Below, one piece after another: positions 27,267 to 35,710 of a stretch of DNA of 46,030 nt. Source of the stretch: Silvanigrellaceae bacterium (GTDB taxonomy: Bacteria; Bdellovibrionota_B; Oligoflexia; Silvanigrellales; CANGWC01). The notes under the pieces are model-generated. The model was not told the DNA's origin, did no database searches, and saw only the letters and a program-made list of their open reading frames with translations. The position numbers were made by a program, and so were the translations under genes. Each line of letters begins with the position of its first letter. Position 1 is the first letter of the stretch. Location of the stretch: assembly GCA_947457515.1 (NCBI GenBank), contig CANGWC010000003.1, forward strand, positions 1 to 46,030, in the 5' to 3' direction.

Positions 27267-27293
27267 CAACACATTCATAGGATGATACAGTTT

Positions 27294-28028
27294 ATGGCAA
27301 CAGTTGTTTGGGAACAACAAGCACAAAGACTACAAGATATTAATGCAAGTTTTCTTGATGCTGCACCAATAGTCCAACCTCAATCTATGGGTAAAGGATT
27401 AAAATTTCATTTACCCATATCGTTGTTGCCTAAAGTGAATACCACAATAGGTTCTAAAAGCGAAAAAGTTCCAACATCTCCTATTCATACTATCCCTATT
27501 CTATCTCTTTTTTATGGCCAAGGCGGCTGGTCAGTAGATATTTGGGGAGGGTTTCTTCCCACTGGTGCAGAAAAAATTATGGGTCTTTCCTCTTCTGTGA
27601 CAGAATTTTTGGGCGGGTTAAAAGGAAGTTATTCTTTTGTTTTATCTAATGATATTCAAACAGAATTGTCTTTAGGAGCACAATATTCTCAGGCAGATGT
27701 TGAAGGAGGGATTACAGAAATTGATGCTAAAGATTCTTTTAAAACTCAGTCCACTTTATTTTATTCAGGATTTTCTTTTATTTATTCTCATGTGTGCTGG
27801 GCTTCCCTAAGTTTAGGGATTAAAAAGACTAAAAGTACATTGGATATTCCTTCAGATCAGGCTCATCTCGTAACAACCGATACTTTAAGCGATTCTACTA
27901 TTCCTTTATATACGACTATTATGGCAGGCTTGACCTATAATTCTTGGAAAGTAGGCATAGGAGAACATTATGTTCCTCTCAGATTATGGATGCCTAAAGC
28001 ATTTATCACTTATGAGTATGCATTATGA
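27294..28028 (+). CDS. Outer-membrane beta-barrel-like protein without visible signal peptide
   Basis: 244 residues from ATG 27294, which has AGGA 11 bases ahead; ATG 27282 is in frame but has no room for a ribosome site. Much of the sequence is alternating amphipathic strands (FYGQGGWSVDIWGGFL, TELSLGAQYSQ, FYSGFSFIYSHVCWASLSLG) and it ends ITYEYAL, an aromatic terminus like barrel proteins. No Sec signal is present in this frame, and the upstream frame closes at once (stop at 27249), so the barrel call is uncertain. It overlaps the cytochrome lipoprotein gene by 4 bases. Confidence 0.6.
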   Translation: MATVVWEQQAQRLQDINASFLDAAPIVQPQSMGKGLKFHLPISLLPKVNTTIGSKSEKVPTSPIHTIPILSLFYGQGGWSVDIWGGFLPTGAEKIMGLSSSVTEFLGGLKGSYSFVLSNDIQTELSLGAQYSQADVEGGITEIDAKDSFKTQSTLFYSGFSFIYSHVCWASLSLGIKKTKSTLDIPSDQAHLVTTDTLSDSTIPLYTTIMAGLTYNSWKVGIGEHYVPLRLWMPKAFITYEYAL

Positions 28029-28384
28029 TTTTATTTATAATTCTTTCGATTCTACAGTCTTGTGGATCTTATGATCTTGGTTCTAGAACTTTCCCCACAA
28101 CTTCAGTAGATGTGCAAAATCCACAATGGGGAGACATTCAAACAATTGTTAAAAATAAATGTGATAACTGCCATGGTGATAACAAATCAGAGTTTGCTCC
28201 TAAAGCAGCTCGTTATTATGGATTTTCTAATGATATTAATACAGTAAAAAATAATGCTTATATTATGTGGTATCGGATTAGCCAGGTACCAAGTAATCCT
28301 ATGCCCACTCGTTATTCCACCCCATTATCTGATCAAGAAAAACAAGGATTAGAAAAATTTCTAACCCAATACTTCACTCCTTAA
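28025..28384 (+). CDS. Small c-type cytochrome lipoprotein
   Basis: 119 residues. A lipoprotein signal ends in ILQSC (Cys13), so the protein should be anchored to an envelope membrane. One heme-binding motif, CDNCH (46-50), gives the proximal His, and Met93 in NPMPTRY is a likely distal ligand, followed by the usual terminal helix (LSDQEKQGLEKFL). This is a class I monoheme cytochrome c-like domain that could move single electrons in the periplasm. No oxidase, dehydrogenase or maturation gene is near, so its partner is unknown. Start overlaps the upstream stop (ATGA). Confidence 0.78.
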   Translation: MILFIILSILQSCGSYDLGSRTFPTTSVDVQNPQWGDIQTIVKNKCDNCHGDNKSEFAPKAARYYGFSNDINTVKNNAYIMWYRISQVPSNPMPTRYSTPLSDQEKQGLEKFLTQYFTP

Positions 28385-28388
28385 ATTT

Positions 28389-29216
28389 ATGACCCTGAAA
28401 AGAACTCAGATCTTTCAAGTTTATTTTGGGATTCTTTTTTTAAGTTTGATTCAATGTCGACAGACAATTCTTGTGACTGATTCAAATATAGCATCCATCA
28501 GTTCAAATCCTTTTTCAAATGCTGCAAATGCTGCAAAAAATAAAACTTCTGTAAATCCATCTAACCAAAAAGGCATTGAAATTAAAGGAATTAAGGCTTG
28601 TGAATATTTTTGGGAAGAAAAACAAGGTTATTGTGATTACACTTTATATGACGCATCTACGAGACAAAATTATCCCAATCCTGATCGAACACAAGATAAA
28701 ACTCTTCAAGGAAGCGGTGTTTTAAAGGCCAATGATATCTGTGATAATGTTCCTAAACTTTTGCCCTGTTTTAAAAAAGCTTGGGCAAATGACACCGATC
28801 ATCATAAAAATCTTGAGAAATTATTTAAAGATAAAAATATCTCACCTATTCAACTTATGTTTGCCTTGGCTTGGCAAGAAACAAGACAGGGGGAAATTCC
28901 TGATCATTGTAGTGGCTCAAGTTGTAATGGAATAGGCTTAAAACAAGTTATCACAGTTGTTTCTGATGATTTCTCTGAAAGTATTAGTGGGAATCAAAAG
29001 CAGTGGCCAGGAATCACTCATAATCTTTTGACTAATTTAAAATATGGACTCAGAATTTTAGATTCTAAGGTAAAAATAGCTTATGCAAAAGGAACACCAT
29101 CTTTAGAATACGTTGCTCAGATTTACAATGGATCTGCTACTCAGTTAGAATATTTAGAACTCGTAAAACAACATTATGAAAAACTCAAAAAGTGTGGAGT
29201 CAACTATGACAACTAA
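28389..29216 (+). CDS. Lytic transglycosylase-like lipoprotein (paralogue 1 of 3)
   Basis: 275 residues with a lipobox (LSLIQC, Cys23) and a Ser/Asn linker to about residue 65. The C-terminal 205 residues are shared with the next two genes and match the layout of the GH23/SLT lysozyme fold: helix with catalytic-type Glu164 in AWQETRQGE, then NGIGLKQVITV (GxxQ motif), NLLTNLKYGLRIL, and IYNGS. Six Cys are shared by all three paralogues, with one extra here (YCDY), implying disulfides outside the cytoplasm. It would cut peptidoglycan glycan strands; this is inferred from motifs, and the conserved N-terminal block (CEYFWEEK to PCFKKAWAND) is not one I recognise. Confidence 0.7.
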   Translation: MTLKRTQIFQVYFGILFLSLIQCRQTILVTDSNIASISSNPFSNAANAAKNKTSVNPSNQKGIEIKGIKACEYFWEEKQGYCDYTLYDASTRQNYPNPDRTQDKTLQGSGVLKANDICDNVPKLLPCFKKAWANDTDHHKNLEKLFKDKNISPIQLMFALAWQETRQGEIPDHCSGSSCNGIGLKQVITVVSDDFSESISGNQKQWPGITHNLLTNLKYGLRILDSKVKIAYAKGTPSLEYVAQIYNGSATQLEYLELVKQHYEKLKKCGVNYDN

Positions 29217-30027
29217 ATTGTTATTTTTAATAGGTATTTCTTCAATGGCATATGCAAACTATATTGAAGAAGCTAAGCAAGGTGCTACAGATGCAATCCG
29301 GAGTTTTGCTAAATCTTTAGAAGATGGAGTTGTAAGTTCTACTAAATCTTTAGATCCTAAGCCAGAAGTTAAACAAGATATTAAGCCAGAAGACAAAGGA
29401 ATTTGTGAGTATTATTGGGAAGAGAAACCTAATTATACTGATTATACAACTTATGATCAGTATTTGAGAAAAAGTCATCCTTCTCCTGATAGAGCAGAGA
29501 AGGAGACTCTTCAAGGAAGTGGTGTACTCGATACTGATGATATCTGCGCAAATGTTCCTAGACTCCTTCCATGTTTTAAAAAAGCATGGGCTAATGATGA
29601 AAAACATCATCAAAATCTTAAGCAATGGGCTAAAGAACAATCTTATTCTATTAATAGGGTTATGTTAGCTCTTGCGTGGAGAGAAACGAGAATGGGGCAA
29701 CTGAGAGATAGTTGCGACAACAAAGGAAATTGTAATGGTGTAGGTATGGTACAAGTTATTACAGTTATTGCCGATGATTTTTCAGAGAGTAATGGGGCTA
29801 ATCAAAAGCAGTGGCAAGGAATCACTCATAATCTTCTCACAAACTTGAAGTATGGCTTAAGAGTTTTAAATTCTAAGGTTAACATAGCTAGGAATTTAGG
29901 AAGAGGAACATCTTTAAAACAAATATCTTACTATTATAATGGTTCTGAACACTACGCAGAAGATTACTCAAAAGCAATTGTTCAGTATTACGAAAAATTA
30001 GGTAAATGTGGAGTCTCTTTTGATTAG
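29206..30027 (+). CDS. Secreted lytic transglycosylase-like protein (paralogue 2 of 3)
   Basis: 273 residues from ATG 29206, chosen for the GGAG ribosome site and the signal peptide MTTKLLFLIGISSMAYA; an ATG at 29176 is in frame but lies in the previous gene. Instead of a lipobox it has a signal-peptidase I type signal, so it is probably free in the periplasm or exported. Catalytic-type Glu160 in AWRETRMGQ, NGVGMVQVITV, NLLTNLKYGLRVL and YYYNGSE are kept. It overlaps paralogue 1 by 11 bases. It is closer to paralogue 3 than to paralogue 1 over the whole domain. Confidence 0.72.
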   Translation: MTTKLLFLIGISSMAYANYIEEAKQGATDAIRSFAKSLEDGVVSSTKSLDPKPEVKQDIKPEDKGICEYYWEEKPNYTDYTTYDQYLRKSHPSPDRAEKETLQGSGVLDTDDICANVPRLLPCFKKAWANDEKHHQNLKQWAKEQSYSINRVMLALAWRETRMGQLRDSCDNKGNCNGVGMVQVITVIADDFSESNGANQKQWQGITHNLLTNLKYGLRVLNSKVNIARNLGRGTSLKQISYYYNGSEHYAEDYSKAIVQYYEKLGKCGVSFD

Positions 30028-30041
30028 TTTGATAACCTGTC

Positions 30042-30125
30042 GATTTACAATAGTTCTAATATTCAGTTAATATATCTTTAAGAATTAAAACAACATTATA
30101 AAACTCAGAAATTGAGGGGCGAATT
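30042..30125 (+). pseudogene. Relic of the 3' end of a paralogue-1-type gene
   Basis: The spacer before paralogue 3 aligns with 29120-29205, the end of paralogue 1. Read from 30043 it gives IYNSSNIQLIYL, a stop, then ELKQHYK, against IYNGSATQLEYL and ELVKQHYEK in paralogue 1. It includes the YNG motif of the lysozyme fold. The match runs up to the start codon, so the ribosome site of paralogue 3 derives from former coding sequence. Confidence 0.72.
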
Positions 30126-30899
30126 ATGATAACTAGATTATTATTTTTATTAGGATTTTCTTCATTAGCAAATGCTCAGTACAGTAAATATGCCCAACAA
30201 GGATTTGTGTCTTCGATGTTGCATTCATTACAAACAGTAGCTCTCCCTTCGGGTCCTAAGATAGGAAACAAGGGGACTTGTGAATATTTTTGGGAAGAGA
30301 AACCTAATTACGCTGATTATACCACTTATGATCAATATTTAAAAAGGAATCATCCTTTTCCTGATAGAACAGAGAAGGAGACTCTTCAAGGAAGTGGTGT
30401 ACTTGATACTGATGATATTTGTGGGAATGTTCCTAAACTTCTGCCTTGTTTTAAAAGGGCATGGGCTAATGATATGAATCATCATCAAAATCTTAAACAA
30501 TGGGCTAATGAAAATTCCTATTCTATTAATCAGGTTATGCTAGCTCTTGCGTGGAGAGAAACGAGAATGGGACAACTGCAAGACAGTTGTGATGATTATG
30601 GTAATTGTAATGGTGTAGGTATGGTTCAAGTCATCACAATTGTAGGAGATGATTTTCAAGAAGATCACAGTTCTCAACTTCCAGAGTGGCAAGGGATCAC
30701 TCATAATCTTCTGACTAATTTAAAATACGGATTGCGAGTCCTGGATTCTAAGGTTAACATAGCCAAGAATTTAGGGGGCACTTCTTTAAAAGAAGTGTCT
30801 TATTATTATAATGGCTCAGAAGATTACGCTGAAGATTATTCACAAGCGATCGTTCAGAATTACGAAAAATTAAGTAAATGCGGGATTTCCTTCGACTAG
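30126..30899 (+). CDS. Secreted lytic transglycosylase-like protein (paralogue 3 of 3)
   Basis: 257 residues with a GAGGGG ribosome site and a signal peptide ending SSLANA. The mature part begins QYSKYAQQG and reaches the shared domain at about residue 52 (CEYFWEEK). Glu145 in AWRETRMGQ, NGVGMVQVITI, NLLTNLKYGLRVL and YYYNGSE are present, so all three copies look catalytically competent. The linker between signal and domain differs in each copy, while the domain is conserved, which suggests different anchoring or targeting. Its end overlaps the ABC ATPase start by 22 bases. Confidence 0.72.
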   Translation: MITRLLFLLGFSSLANAQYSKYAQQGFVSSMLHSLQTVALPSGPKIGNKGTCEYFWEEKPNYADYTTYDQYLKRNHPFPDRTEKETLQGSGVLDTDDICGNVPKLLPCFKRAWANDMNHHQNLKQWANENSYSINQVMLALAWRETRMGQLQDSCDDYGNCNGVGMVQVITIVGDDFQEDHSSQLPEWQGITHNLLTNLKYGLRVLDSKVNIAKNLGGTSLKEVSYYYNGSEDYAEDYSQAIVQNYEKLSKCGISFD

Positions 30900-31528
30900 A
30901 CAATTTATGTAGCGGCTATGATCATAGCCTACACCAACCTTTATCCTTAACCATTCATAAGCCTGGTATCTATTTGATTTCTGGACCTAATGGGTCTGGC
31001 AAGACAACTCTGATTAGAACTCTACTGAATCTTCTTAATCCTATATCCGGTTCTTTTGAGTATTCTGAGCAAAATAGTTTGTCTTATGTTTCTCAAGTAT
31101 CCCACTTACATAGCTATTTCCCTATGAATATCAGTAGATATGTTTCTCTGGGGTTAGGACCATCTCGAGGTCTGAATCAAGATAAGATTCCAAAAATTTT
31201 AGAGCATTGGGAAATCACTCATTTAGCTCAACGATCTTTACAGGAAATCAGCCCTGGAGAGAAACTCAGAGCCATGATGGCAAGGGCTATGGTATCTCAA
31301 CCTAAAGGGTTATTTCTAGATGAGCCTTTAGCTCACTTAGATGTTTGCTGCCAAGAATTTCTGGTTAAAACCATTCAGGATTATGCACTTCAGAATAATG
31401 CTTTTATTTTTGTGATTGAACACCATTTTGAGAAATTCTCAGAATATGTCACAGGGAATATTACATTTGGACGTTGGCTACATGGAGAGGCTTTAAGTCA
31501 AATTCAATTTCAACAGGTCAAATCATGA
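30878..31528 (+). CDS. ABC transporter ATPase, zinc/manganese (ABC-3) type
   Basis: 216-residue nucleotide-binding subunit that pairs with the next gene. Walker A is SGPNGSGKTTLIRTLL, the Q-loop SYVSQVSHL, and Walker B GLFLDEPLAHLD with an H-loop His in FVIEHHFE. The signature motif is altered: ISPGEKLRAMMARAM instead of the usual LSGGQ/LSGGE. The order ATPase-permease fits ZnuC-ZnuB or MntA-MntB transporters. No metal-binding periplasmic protein (ZnuA) is next to it. The start lies within the end of the preceding gene. Confidence 0.8.
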   Translation: MRDFLRLDNLCSGYDHSLHQPLSLTIHKPGIYLISGPNGSGKTTLIRTLLNLLNPISGSFEYSEQNSLSYVSQVSHLHSYFPMNISRYVSLGLGPSRGLNQDKIPKILEHWEITHLAQRSLQEISPGEKLRAMMARAMVSQPKGLFLDEPLAHLDVCCQEFLVKTIQDYALQNNAFIFVIEHHFEKFSEYVTGNITFGRWLHGEALSQIQFQQVKS

Positions 31529-33807: not shown

Positions 33808-34668
33808 ATGAATCAGTTAAAGCTCATAACTTTATTATCTATTTTAATAATTTCACCTCTACAAAATGCCCTAGGAGCAGAAGGCTCTGATATTGGTGGT
33901 GATTTTATGATCTCTTCTGCGGAAGAATTAGATATTCAAGCTTATTATCAAGAACTTTTACTATTGGCTCAAAAAATCAAAGTTTATGCCCGTCAGTATC
34001 ATTACCTTTACCAAGCGCAAATCAGCCTCAAACAAATTTTTCAAACAACATATCAACCTTTTCAACTTACCCCTGAGGCGAGATCTTATTCCGCTACAAT
34101 AAAAAGTATCTGCGAATTGGAAAATTTGGGTATGCAAGAAGTTAATCAAGATCTGAGTGCTTGTATTTCTAACAATATTAAGAAGTATGCTTCAGTTATT
34201 GATGCTAATTTACAACTCATCTCACAAATGGAAATAAATATAGAAGACAGTGTAGTAACCTCGCTGAGTCAAACACTTCTTTTCATACAAAATCAGATAT
34301 TAGACTTACAGTATCCATTGGTTAGTGATCATTTAAAAGAAGCCATTATTAAAAAAAATGATAGTTCTATGCTAAATATGGATGCTTTGGTACTTAAAAA
34401 TTTTTTAAAAGTGTTCATTCCTATATTAAAAAAAGGTGTTACATTAGCTGAAATGATATATCCAGATCTGAGATGTGAAGATTCTGACTTTAGTGAACAG
34501 TTTCAAGCAATAAATAAAAAACATAGATTTATTGATCATAAAGATTGGGAAGAATCGCTTTTTTCATTTCTAACCCCGCAAGAGAAAGCTGATAATATCT
34601 TAATAATTAAGAAAAAAGTAAAGGAAGGAGCATTAATCTCTGATATTTTCTATATGATGCCTCATTAA
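33808..34668 (+). CDS. Secreted protein of unknown function, family A copy 1
   Basis: 286 residues with a Sec signal ending NALGA and then a Gly-rich EGSDIGGDF stretch. The remainder looks alpha-helical (QAYYQELLLLAQKIKVYARQ, shared with copy 2) and ends in a conserved block: a W-E-LF-FLTPQEK motif and EGALISDIFYMM. Not recognised. AAGGA precedes the ATG by 6 bases. It lies 67 bases after lysS and heads a tandem pair whose leaders are also duplicated. No catalytic motif is evident. Confidence 0.75.
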   Translation: MNQLKLITLLSILIISPLQNALGAEGSDIGGDFMISSAEELDIQAYYQELLLLAQKIKVYARQYHYLYQAQISLKQIFQTTYQPFQLTPEARSYSATIKSICELENLGMQEVNQDLSACISNNIKKYASVIDANLQLISQMEINIEDSVVTSLSQTLLFIQNQILDLQYPLVSDHLKEAIIKKNDSSMLNMDALVLKNFLKVFIPILKKGVTLAEMIYPDLRCEDSDFSEQFQAINKKHRFIDHKDWEESLFSFLTPQEKADNILIIKKKVKEGALISDIFYMMPH

Positions 34669-34831: not shown

Positions 34832-35710
34832 ATGAATCATTTAAAGCTCATAATTTTATTACCTATTTTAATGATCTTACCTCTACAAAAAGCTTTAGGA
34901 GCAGGAGGCTCTGATATTGGTGGTAGTCCTAATATACCTGTAGATCCAGCAGATATAACATTCTATTATCAAGATCTTCTACTATTGGCTCAAAAAATCA
35001 AAATTTATGCTCGTCAGTATCATTTACTTTCTCAAGCTAGAATAAGTATCAAAGAAATTTTTCGTCAGACATATCAACTCTTTCAACTCACCCCTCAGGC
35101 GATATCTTATGCGGCTACAATTAAAAGTACCCTTGAATTAGAAGTATTAGATAGGCAAGAAGTTAATCAAGATATGAGTGCTTATATCTCTGAAAATATT
35201 AAAGAACACGGTTATACCATTCAAGCTAATTCACAACGGCTCACACCAATGGAAAAAGCTATAGAAGACAATATCCTAGATGCAATGAGTCGAGGACTTA
35301 ATCTTATAAAGGATAGTATAGAGGAATCAAATTATCCAATAATTACAAGAAGATTTAAACAAAATATTCTTGATGTAAATCATAATTCTCCTCAAACTTC
35401 TGATACTCAATTAGTGAAATTATTTTTGGAAATATTTCCGTCTGTACTCAGGTCTAACTTGGAAGAAGGGCTTCAAGAAATTTTAAATGAGGATGATGAT
35501 GAGGTTCATAGAGAATACGATAATCTATTCAATGATCGTACATTTAATACTTATGATGGTTGGGAAAAAGCACTTTTTGCATTTCTGAGCCCACAAGAGA
35601 AAACTCAAAATATTATCATGATTAATACAAAAGCAAATGAAGGAACATTAATTTCTGATGTTTTCTATATGATGTCTCCTGAATTTGAACTCGGGTTACA
35701 TCATAAATAA
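34832..35710 (+). CDS. Secreted protein of unknown function, family A copy 2
   Basis: 292 residues, clear paralogue of the gene at 33808: signal ending KALGA, then GGSDIGGSP, the helical YYQDLLLLAQKIKIYARQYH block, FQLTPQAISYAATIKS, QEVNQDMSAYIS, and the C-terminal FLSPQEK and EGTLISDVFYMM motifs. It is slightly longer at the C-terminus (EFELGLHHK). The middle third (about 130-220) has diverged most. A good AAGGA ribosome site is present. Function unknown; duplication plus export suggests a surface or extracellular role under diversifying pressure. Confidence 0.75.
   Translation: MNHLKLIILLPILMILPLQKALGAGGSDIGGSPNIPVDPADITFYYQDLLLLAQKIKIYARQYHLLSQARISIKEIFRQTYQLFQLTPQAISYAATIKSTLELEVLDRQEVNQDMSAYISENIKEHGYTIQANSQRLTPMEKAIEDNILDAMSRGLNLIKDSIEESNYPIITRRFKQNILDVNHNSPQTSDTQLVKLFLEIFPSVLRSNLEEGLQEILNEDDDEVHREYDNLFNDRTFNTYDGWEKALFAFLSPQEKTQNIIMINTKANEGTLISDVFYMMSPEFELGLHHK

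Follow-up and report, generated by a model that had tools for sequence, protein, structure and literature searches.

Three tandem genes encoded on the + strand of the analysed DNA, a window of 46,030 nt which is one whole contig (C3), quite probably form a new, undescribed and divergent branch of the lysozyme superfamily with GH23 as its nearest known neighbour. The proteins are predicted to be exported and to use a glutamate (Glu164 in the first copy) as catalytic acid, and the likeliest role for them is cutting the cell wall of the organism itself. The genome, of an uncultured organism which most likely represents a separate family within the Silvanigrellales, comprises 1.17 Mb in 68 contigs, is 74% complete and has a G+C content of about 35% across the 1.01 Mb which were read. 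The lysozyme-like gene is triplicated here despite the small genome.

The three ORFs are complete and intact and lie head to tail at 28389-29216 (copy 1, 275 aa), 29206-30027 (copy 2, 273 aa) and 30126-30899 (copy 3, 257 aa), where the initial annotation had placed three tandem paralogues (28389-30899). For copy 2 the ATG at 29206 is the most likely start, resulting in an 11-base overlap with the 3′ part of copy 1, whereas the start that was assigned mechanically, at 29176, is located upstream of the signal peptide. Over the full length, copies 2 and 3 show 55 and 52% protein identity to copy 1. Each copy consists of a variable N-terminus, with the longest linker in copy 2, and a constant domain of approximately 205 residues, which begins at C71, C67, and C51 in copies 1, 2, and 3, respectively. 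Within the domain, identity is high (167/206 between copies 2 and 3, 122/203 between copies 1 and 2, 119/204 between copies 1 and 3), whereas it is low in the N-termini (23/51, 15/64, and 14/51 for the same pairs), as the earlier description of a constant domain behind differing linkers had stated. The roughly 200 shared residues and six shared cysteines noted at that time were also recovered: C71, C118, C127, C174, C179, and C269 (copy 1 numbering) are invariant in the three copies, and so are E164, D172, and the motifs GxGxxQ and YNG.

Within the 98 bases that separate copies 2 and 3 lies a decayed remnant of the 3′ end of copy 1. This remnant (30042-30118, +) matches positions 29120-29198 with a local score of 77.5, compared to at most 42 in 300 shuffles, and the similarity extends as far as position 30203, in the signal-peptide region of copy 3. 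Copy 3 therefore originated from a duplicated unit consisting of the tail of copy 1 and copy 2. The three copies form one group in the tree (100/99), within which copies 2 and 3 are nearest to each other (98/97). The dN/dS values are 0.106/0.934 for copies 2 and 3, 0.314/1.001 for copies 1 and 2 and 0.346/1.600 for copies 1 and 3. The resulting ratios of 0.11-0.31 indicate purifying selection and, combined with the invariant motifs, argue for a working protein. This selection and the recovery of the same motifs in seven further genomes exclude a chance origin.

Regarding export, the initial annotation had described copy 1 as a lipoprotein and the other two as having cleavable signals. Copies 2 and 3 carry ordinary type-I signal peptides, which by eye end in AYA|N and ANA|Q, respectively. 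Copy 1 starts with a lipobox-like LIQ-C23 followed by a linker; the Gln at position -1 is non-canonical. When about 1.01 Mb of the genome were surveyed by pattern, a similar start, FIQ-CKRIHSQ, and many -FC and -SC starts were found, for which reason a lipoprotein is likely for copy 1. By this pattern survey, Phe, Gln or Asn at -1 of lipobox-like starts (for example LSIQFC, NLSFC, FIQC) is common in loci L061-L120 and the window, as if the lipobox of the lineage were relaxed. A split into one lipoprotein and two soluble forms is likely, with type-I signals in copies 2 and 3 and a probable lipobox in copy 1; it may send one enzyme to different places, as had been suggested. Copy 1 would then be an outer-membrane lipoprotein, and copies 2 and 3 would probably be soluble forms which are released to the periplasm or to the outside.

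The genes are embedded in a row of genes on the + strand. Upstream, a gene at 27282-28028, in the same apparent transcription unit and beta-barrel-like by eye with no Pfam match, overlaps by 4 bases with a gene for a small lipoprotein-like c-type cytochrome (CDNCHG, 28025-28384), which ends 4 bases before copy 1. Downstream, the last 22 bases of copy 3 are shared with the gene of an ABC transporter ATPase (30878-31528), which is followed by genes for an ABC-3 permease and a class-II (lysyl-type) tRNA-synthetase-like protein. Apart from the 98-base gap before copy 3, overlaps or gaps are a few bases each, and the row including the three copies is likely one transcription unit. A promoter scan yielded sites about as numerous as in shuffles. 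The cytochrome-like lipoprotein shares its gene row with the predicted wall enzymes. Two further observations were made on the same contig. Downstream of the lysyl-tRNA-synthetase-like gene, two more exported paralogues lie in tandem (33808-34668 and 34832-35710; 286 and 292 aa, no Pfam match), both with a signal ending ALGA followed by GSDIGG. At 214-1780, an AbiEii-like nucleotidyltransferase is overlapped by a 201-aa partner, a probable type IV toxin-antitoxin pair.

The family is invisible to common annotation models. No match was obtained with Pfam, NCBIfam or PHROG models or with PDB sequences, and SLT (PF01464) did not match any of ten members up to an E-value of 1. The HMM search against SLT and GH23 families, which had been suggested as a check of the lysozyme reading, thus gave no hit; the similarity lies below HMMER detection. 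In a profile-profile comparison (hhalign) of ten family members, a joint goose-type and SLT alignment scored 32.8, whereas none of 150 column shuffles exceeded 21.7 (P 0.00026), and the goose-type alignment alone scored 26.4 against a shuffle maximum of 22.5 (0/150 above). The SLT-only profile reached an unexceptional 20.0, with a maximum of 21.3 in 200 shuffles and at least five of these scoring higher. In the alignment, ETRxG/ETNLG of the family falls on ESHAG of goose lysozyme, NGxGxxQV on NGFGLMQV and YNGS on AYNAG. Glu, GxxQ and AYNxG of SLT (PF01464) occur in the same order, although the score against SLT by itself does not reach significance. Gln follows Glu at a spacing of 22 in copy 1 and in most relatives and of 23 in copies 2 and 3, compared to 22 in goose lysozyme and 18 in the SLT proteins of the same genome.

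The AlphaFold model of the core has a pTM of 0.76, with pLDDT values of about 80-95 in the helical core and about 50 in the predicted active-site loops, and a helix ends at the motif of the predicted catalytic Glu. In a Foldseek search of this model against 350,542 chains, seven of the first eight places were taken by lysozyme-superfamily folds: goose-type lysozyme 4g9s, EtgA 8urn, MltE (two), the Clostridioides cell-wall hydrolase 4hpe (two chains) and MltC. Goose-type lysozyme was the top match with an E-value of 0.089, no match falling below 0.08; for the full-length model EtgA and MltC ranked first. Given these E-values, none of them significant, and the missing family HMM match, the likeness could be coincidental and the proteins could be other cysteine-stabilised helical exported proteins with no activity on peptidoglycan. 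This is quite improbable in view of three motifs whose order and spacing are as expected, a score above every shuffle and the predominance of lysozyme-superfamily folds among the first Foldseek places. A lysozyme fold is therefore likely, as had been proposed earlier; profile comparison, structure search, and motif order and spacing all point to it, each being weak to moderate in itself. Judged from sequence and model, the proteins probably cut the sugar chains of bacterial cell walls.

The predicted catalytic acid of copy 1, Glu164 (28878-28880, +), aligns to E73 of goose lysozyme, Gln186 of GxGxxQ (28944-28946, +) to Q95 and the YNG motif (29124-29132, +) to AYNAG. The corresponding glutamates are Glu160 in copy 2 (29683-29685, +), assigned by profile alignment, and the codon at 30558-30560 (+) in copy 3. 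The family positions corresponding to the second acids D86 and D97 of goose lysozyme, at +13 and +24 from the Glu, are non-acidic. Instead, an Asp at Glu+8 (Asp172 of copy 1, 28902-28904, +) is invariant in 12 of 12 sequences, including members which lack the Glu, and is a candidate second acid. In T4 lysozyme (E11, D20) the second acid is found at +9.

Based on this, the following mechanism can be proposed. Glu164, at the end of the central helix, would be the acid that attacks the MurNAc-GlcNAc bond, in a sugar groove lined by the GxGxxQ hairpin and the YNG helix. The six cysteines probably form three disulfides which brace the fold and the family-specific N-terminal block. If Asp172 works as second acid, the enzymes would be inverting lysozymes; if not, they would be lytic transglycosylases. 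The earlier assignment to lytic transglycosylases is one of two readings that fit; the other is a lysozyme, as the nearest spacing is goose-type and the invariant Asp could be a second acid. It may be, though we do not prefer it, that the proteins are ordinary single-acid lytic transglycosylases for growth, division or recycling of the own wall, with a structural Asp at +8. In favour of this, most Mlt proteins of Gram-negatives are lipoproteins of the outer membrane, MltE and MltC rank among the best folds, and by eye the family has no counterpart of D86 and D97; the conservation of the Asp in all 12 sequences, even where the Glu is lost, and the similar position of the second acid in T4 lysozyme speak against a purely structural residue.

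Profile searches found relatives in 5 of 57 further genomes from the phylum (6 of 58 with the own genome) and in 2 of 341 Elusimicrobiota. A single-sequence scan of genome contigs found none. The profile scan that yielded five of the loci, L014 and L015 (Elusimicrobia), L016 and L017 (an uncultured proteobacterium, ErkenSummer bin) and L018 (Silvanigrellales), relied on one peptide pattern, so that members can be missed. An origin from a phage endolysin is unsupported, as the search of viral contigs, phages and plasmids found no relatives. In the tree, one Elusimicrobia sequence pairs with a sequence from the Oligoflexia side (94/95), which suggests transfer between phyla. Three relatives carry an additional Cys-containing N-terminal stretch. 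One Elusimicrobia relative has an M23 peptidase gene two genes away, in line with the preferred reading. At locus L014 (4593-10621), a short FxxLxRL-like stretch recurs (by eye) just after the signal peptide of neighbouring exported proteins, M23 and Lnb_N members among them.

One branch has lost residues of the active-site motifs, a point against the reading as enzymes. In the genus of genomes G006, G008, and G010, two members have Gln in place of the Glu, and all three have Arg or Lys in place of the hairpin Gln, while the Asp at Glu+8 is retained; this branch is probably inactive. It resembles inactive lysozyme-like proteins which are reported in the work on DslA to retain the second acid (PMC7511926). 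The degenerate motifs, at L008, L010, and L012, lie behind a longer N-terminal domain with paired cysteines; these relatives are probable pseudoenzymes kept in three genomes.

The organism has a cell wall, since peptidoglycan transpeptidases are encoded in its genome. Work on this wall is possible for the new proteins, because two ordinary SLT proteins are encoded besides the transpeptidases; the glycan strands of the own envelope would be the likeliest substrate, the main alternative being the walls of prey or neighbours; predation, competition or use on a host may be served. For the alternative, secreted or surface-held lysozymes would be aimed outward, as DslA of Bdellovibrio acts on the prey wall. 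Bdellovibrio belongs to the same phylum (NCBI taxonomy), DslA also combines a lipobox with a low-complexity linker and disulfides and has divergent paralogues (PMC7511926), the copies are multiplied with and without an anchor, and most relatives also begin with a lipobox (by eye). We consider this outward use rather unlikely, because the family lacks the YW motif of DslA and its second Glu at +11, and self-remodelling demands no extra assumption; moreover, the VipB protein of type VI secretion systems (T6SS; PF05943) was not found in the 74% complete genome. A reading as T6SS effector was dropped on the lack of VipB in this 74% complete genome; the neighbours are a cytochrome and an ABC transporter rather than an immunity gene.

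Beyond the preferred reading of a GH23-related branch acting on the own wall, a wider one can be put forward tentatively. The proteins could found a glycoside-hydrolase family of their own within the lysozyme superfamily, in which disulfides pin the catalytic hairpin, the Asp at Glu+8 is the second acid and the N-terminal Cys block is obligate. It would have been passed between Oligoflexia and Elusimicrobia, and the one genus (three genomes) with degenerate motifs would likely hold a wall-binding pseudoenzyme. The family is small and present in two phyla, with intact as well as degenerate active sites, so that even a small number of purified members could reveal how the second acid and the choice of substrate change.

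Among known systems, goose-type lysozymes (GH23; 153l, 4g9s) are closest, sharing the ESxxG-like motif, the NGxGxxQV hairpin, YN-G and the spacing of 22 and giving the best Foldseek match. They differ in D86 and D97, and the family adds the N-terminal Cys block and six family-specific cysteines. SLT-type lytic transglycosylases (PF01464; Slt70, MltC, MltE) have the same order of Glu, GxGxxQ and YNG, and their lipoprotein form is comparable to copy 1. However, the family lies below PF01464 detection and has a spacing of 22-23 instead of 18 and six conserved cysteines. EtgA (8urn), a lytic enzyme of type III secretion, was the first or second Foldseek match for both models but differs in size and N-terminus. 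Tse3, a T6SS muramidase with an SLT fold, shares the order Glu, Gly, Gln, Tyr (PMC3792639), but is an injected effector with an immunity protein and calcium sites, whereas the family carries signal peptides.

The closest functional analogue is DslA, which together with DslB and DslC forms a divergent branch of the lysozyme superfamily in Bdellovibrio bacteriovorus (6TA9, 6TAB; PMC7511926), with a related lineage, lipobox, disordered linker, disulfides and several paralogues in common with the family. DslA chains were found neither among PDB sequence matches up to an E-value of 10 nor among the Foldseek matches, and its second acid, which is located on the first hairpin strand, and the YW motif are not conserved in the family alignment (PMC7511926). 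As a precedent, DslA showed that branches of the lysozyme superfamily which are hard to recognise can carry new substrate specificity.
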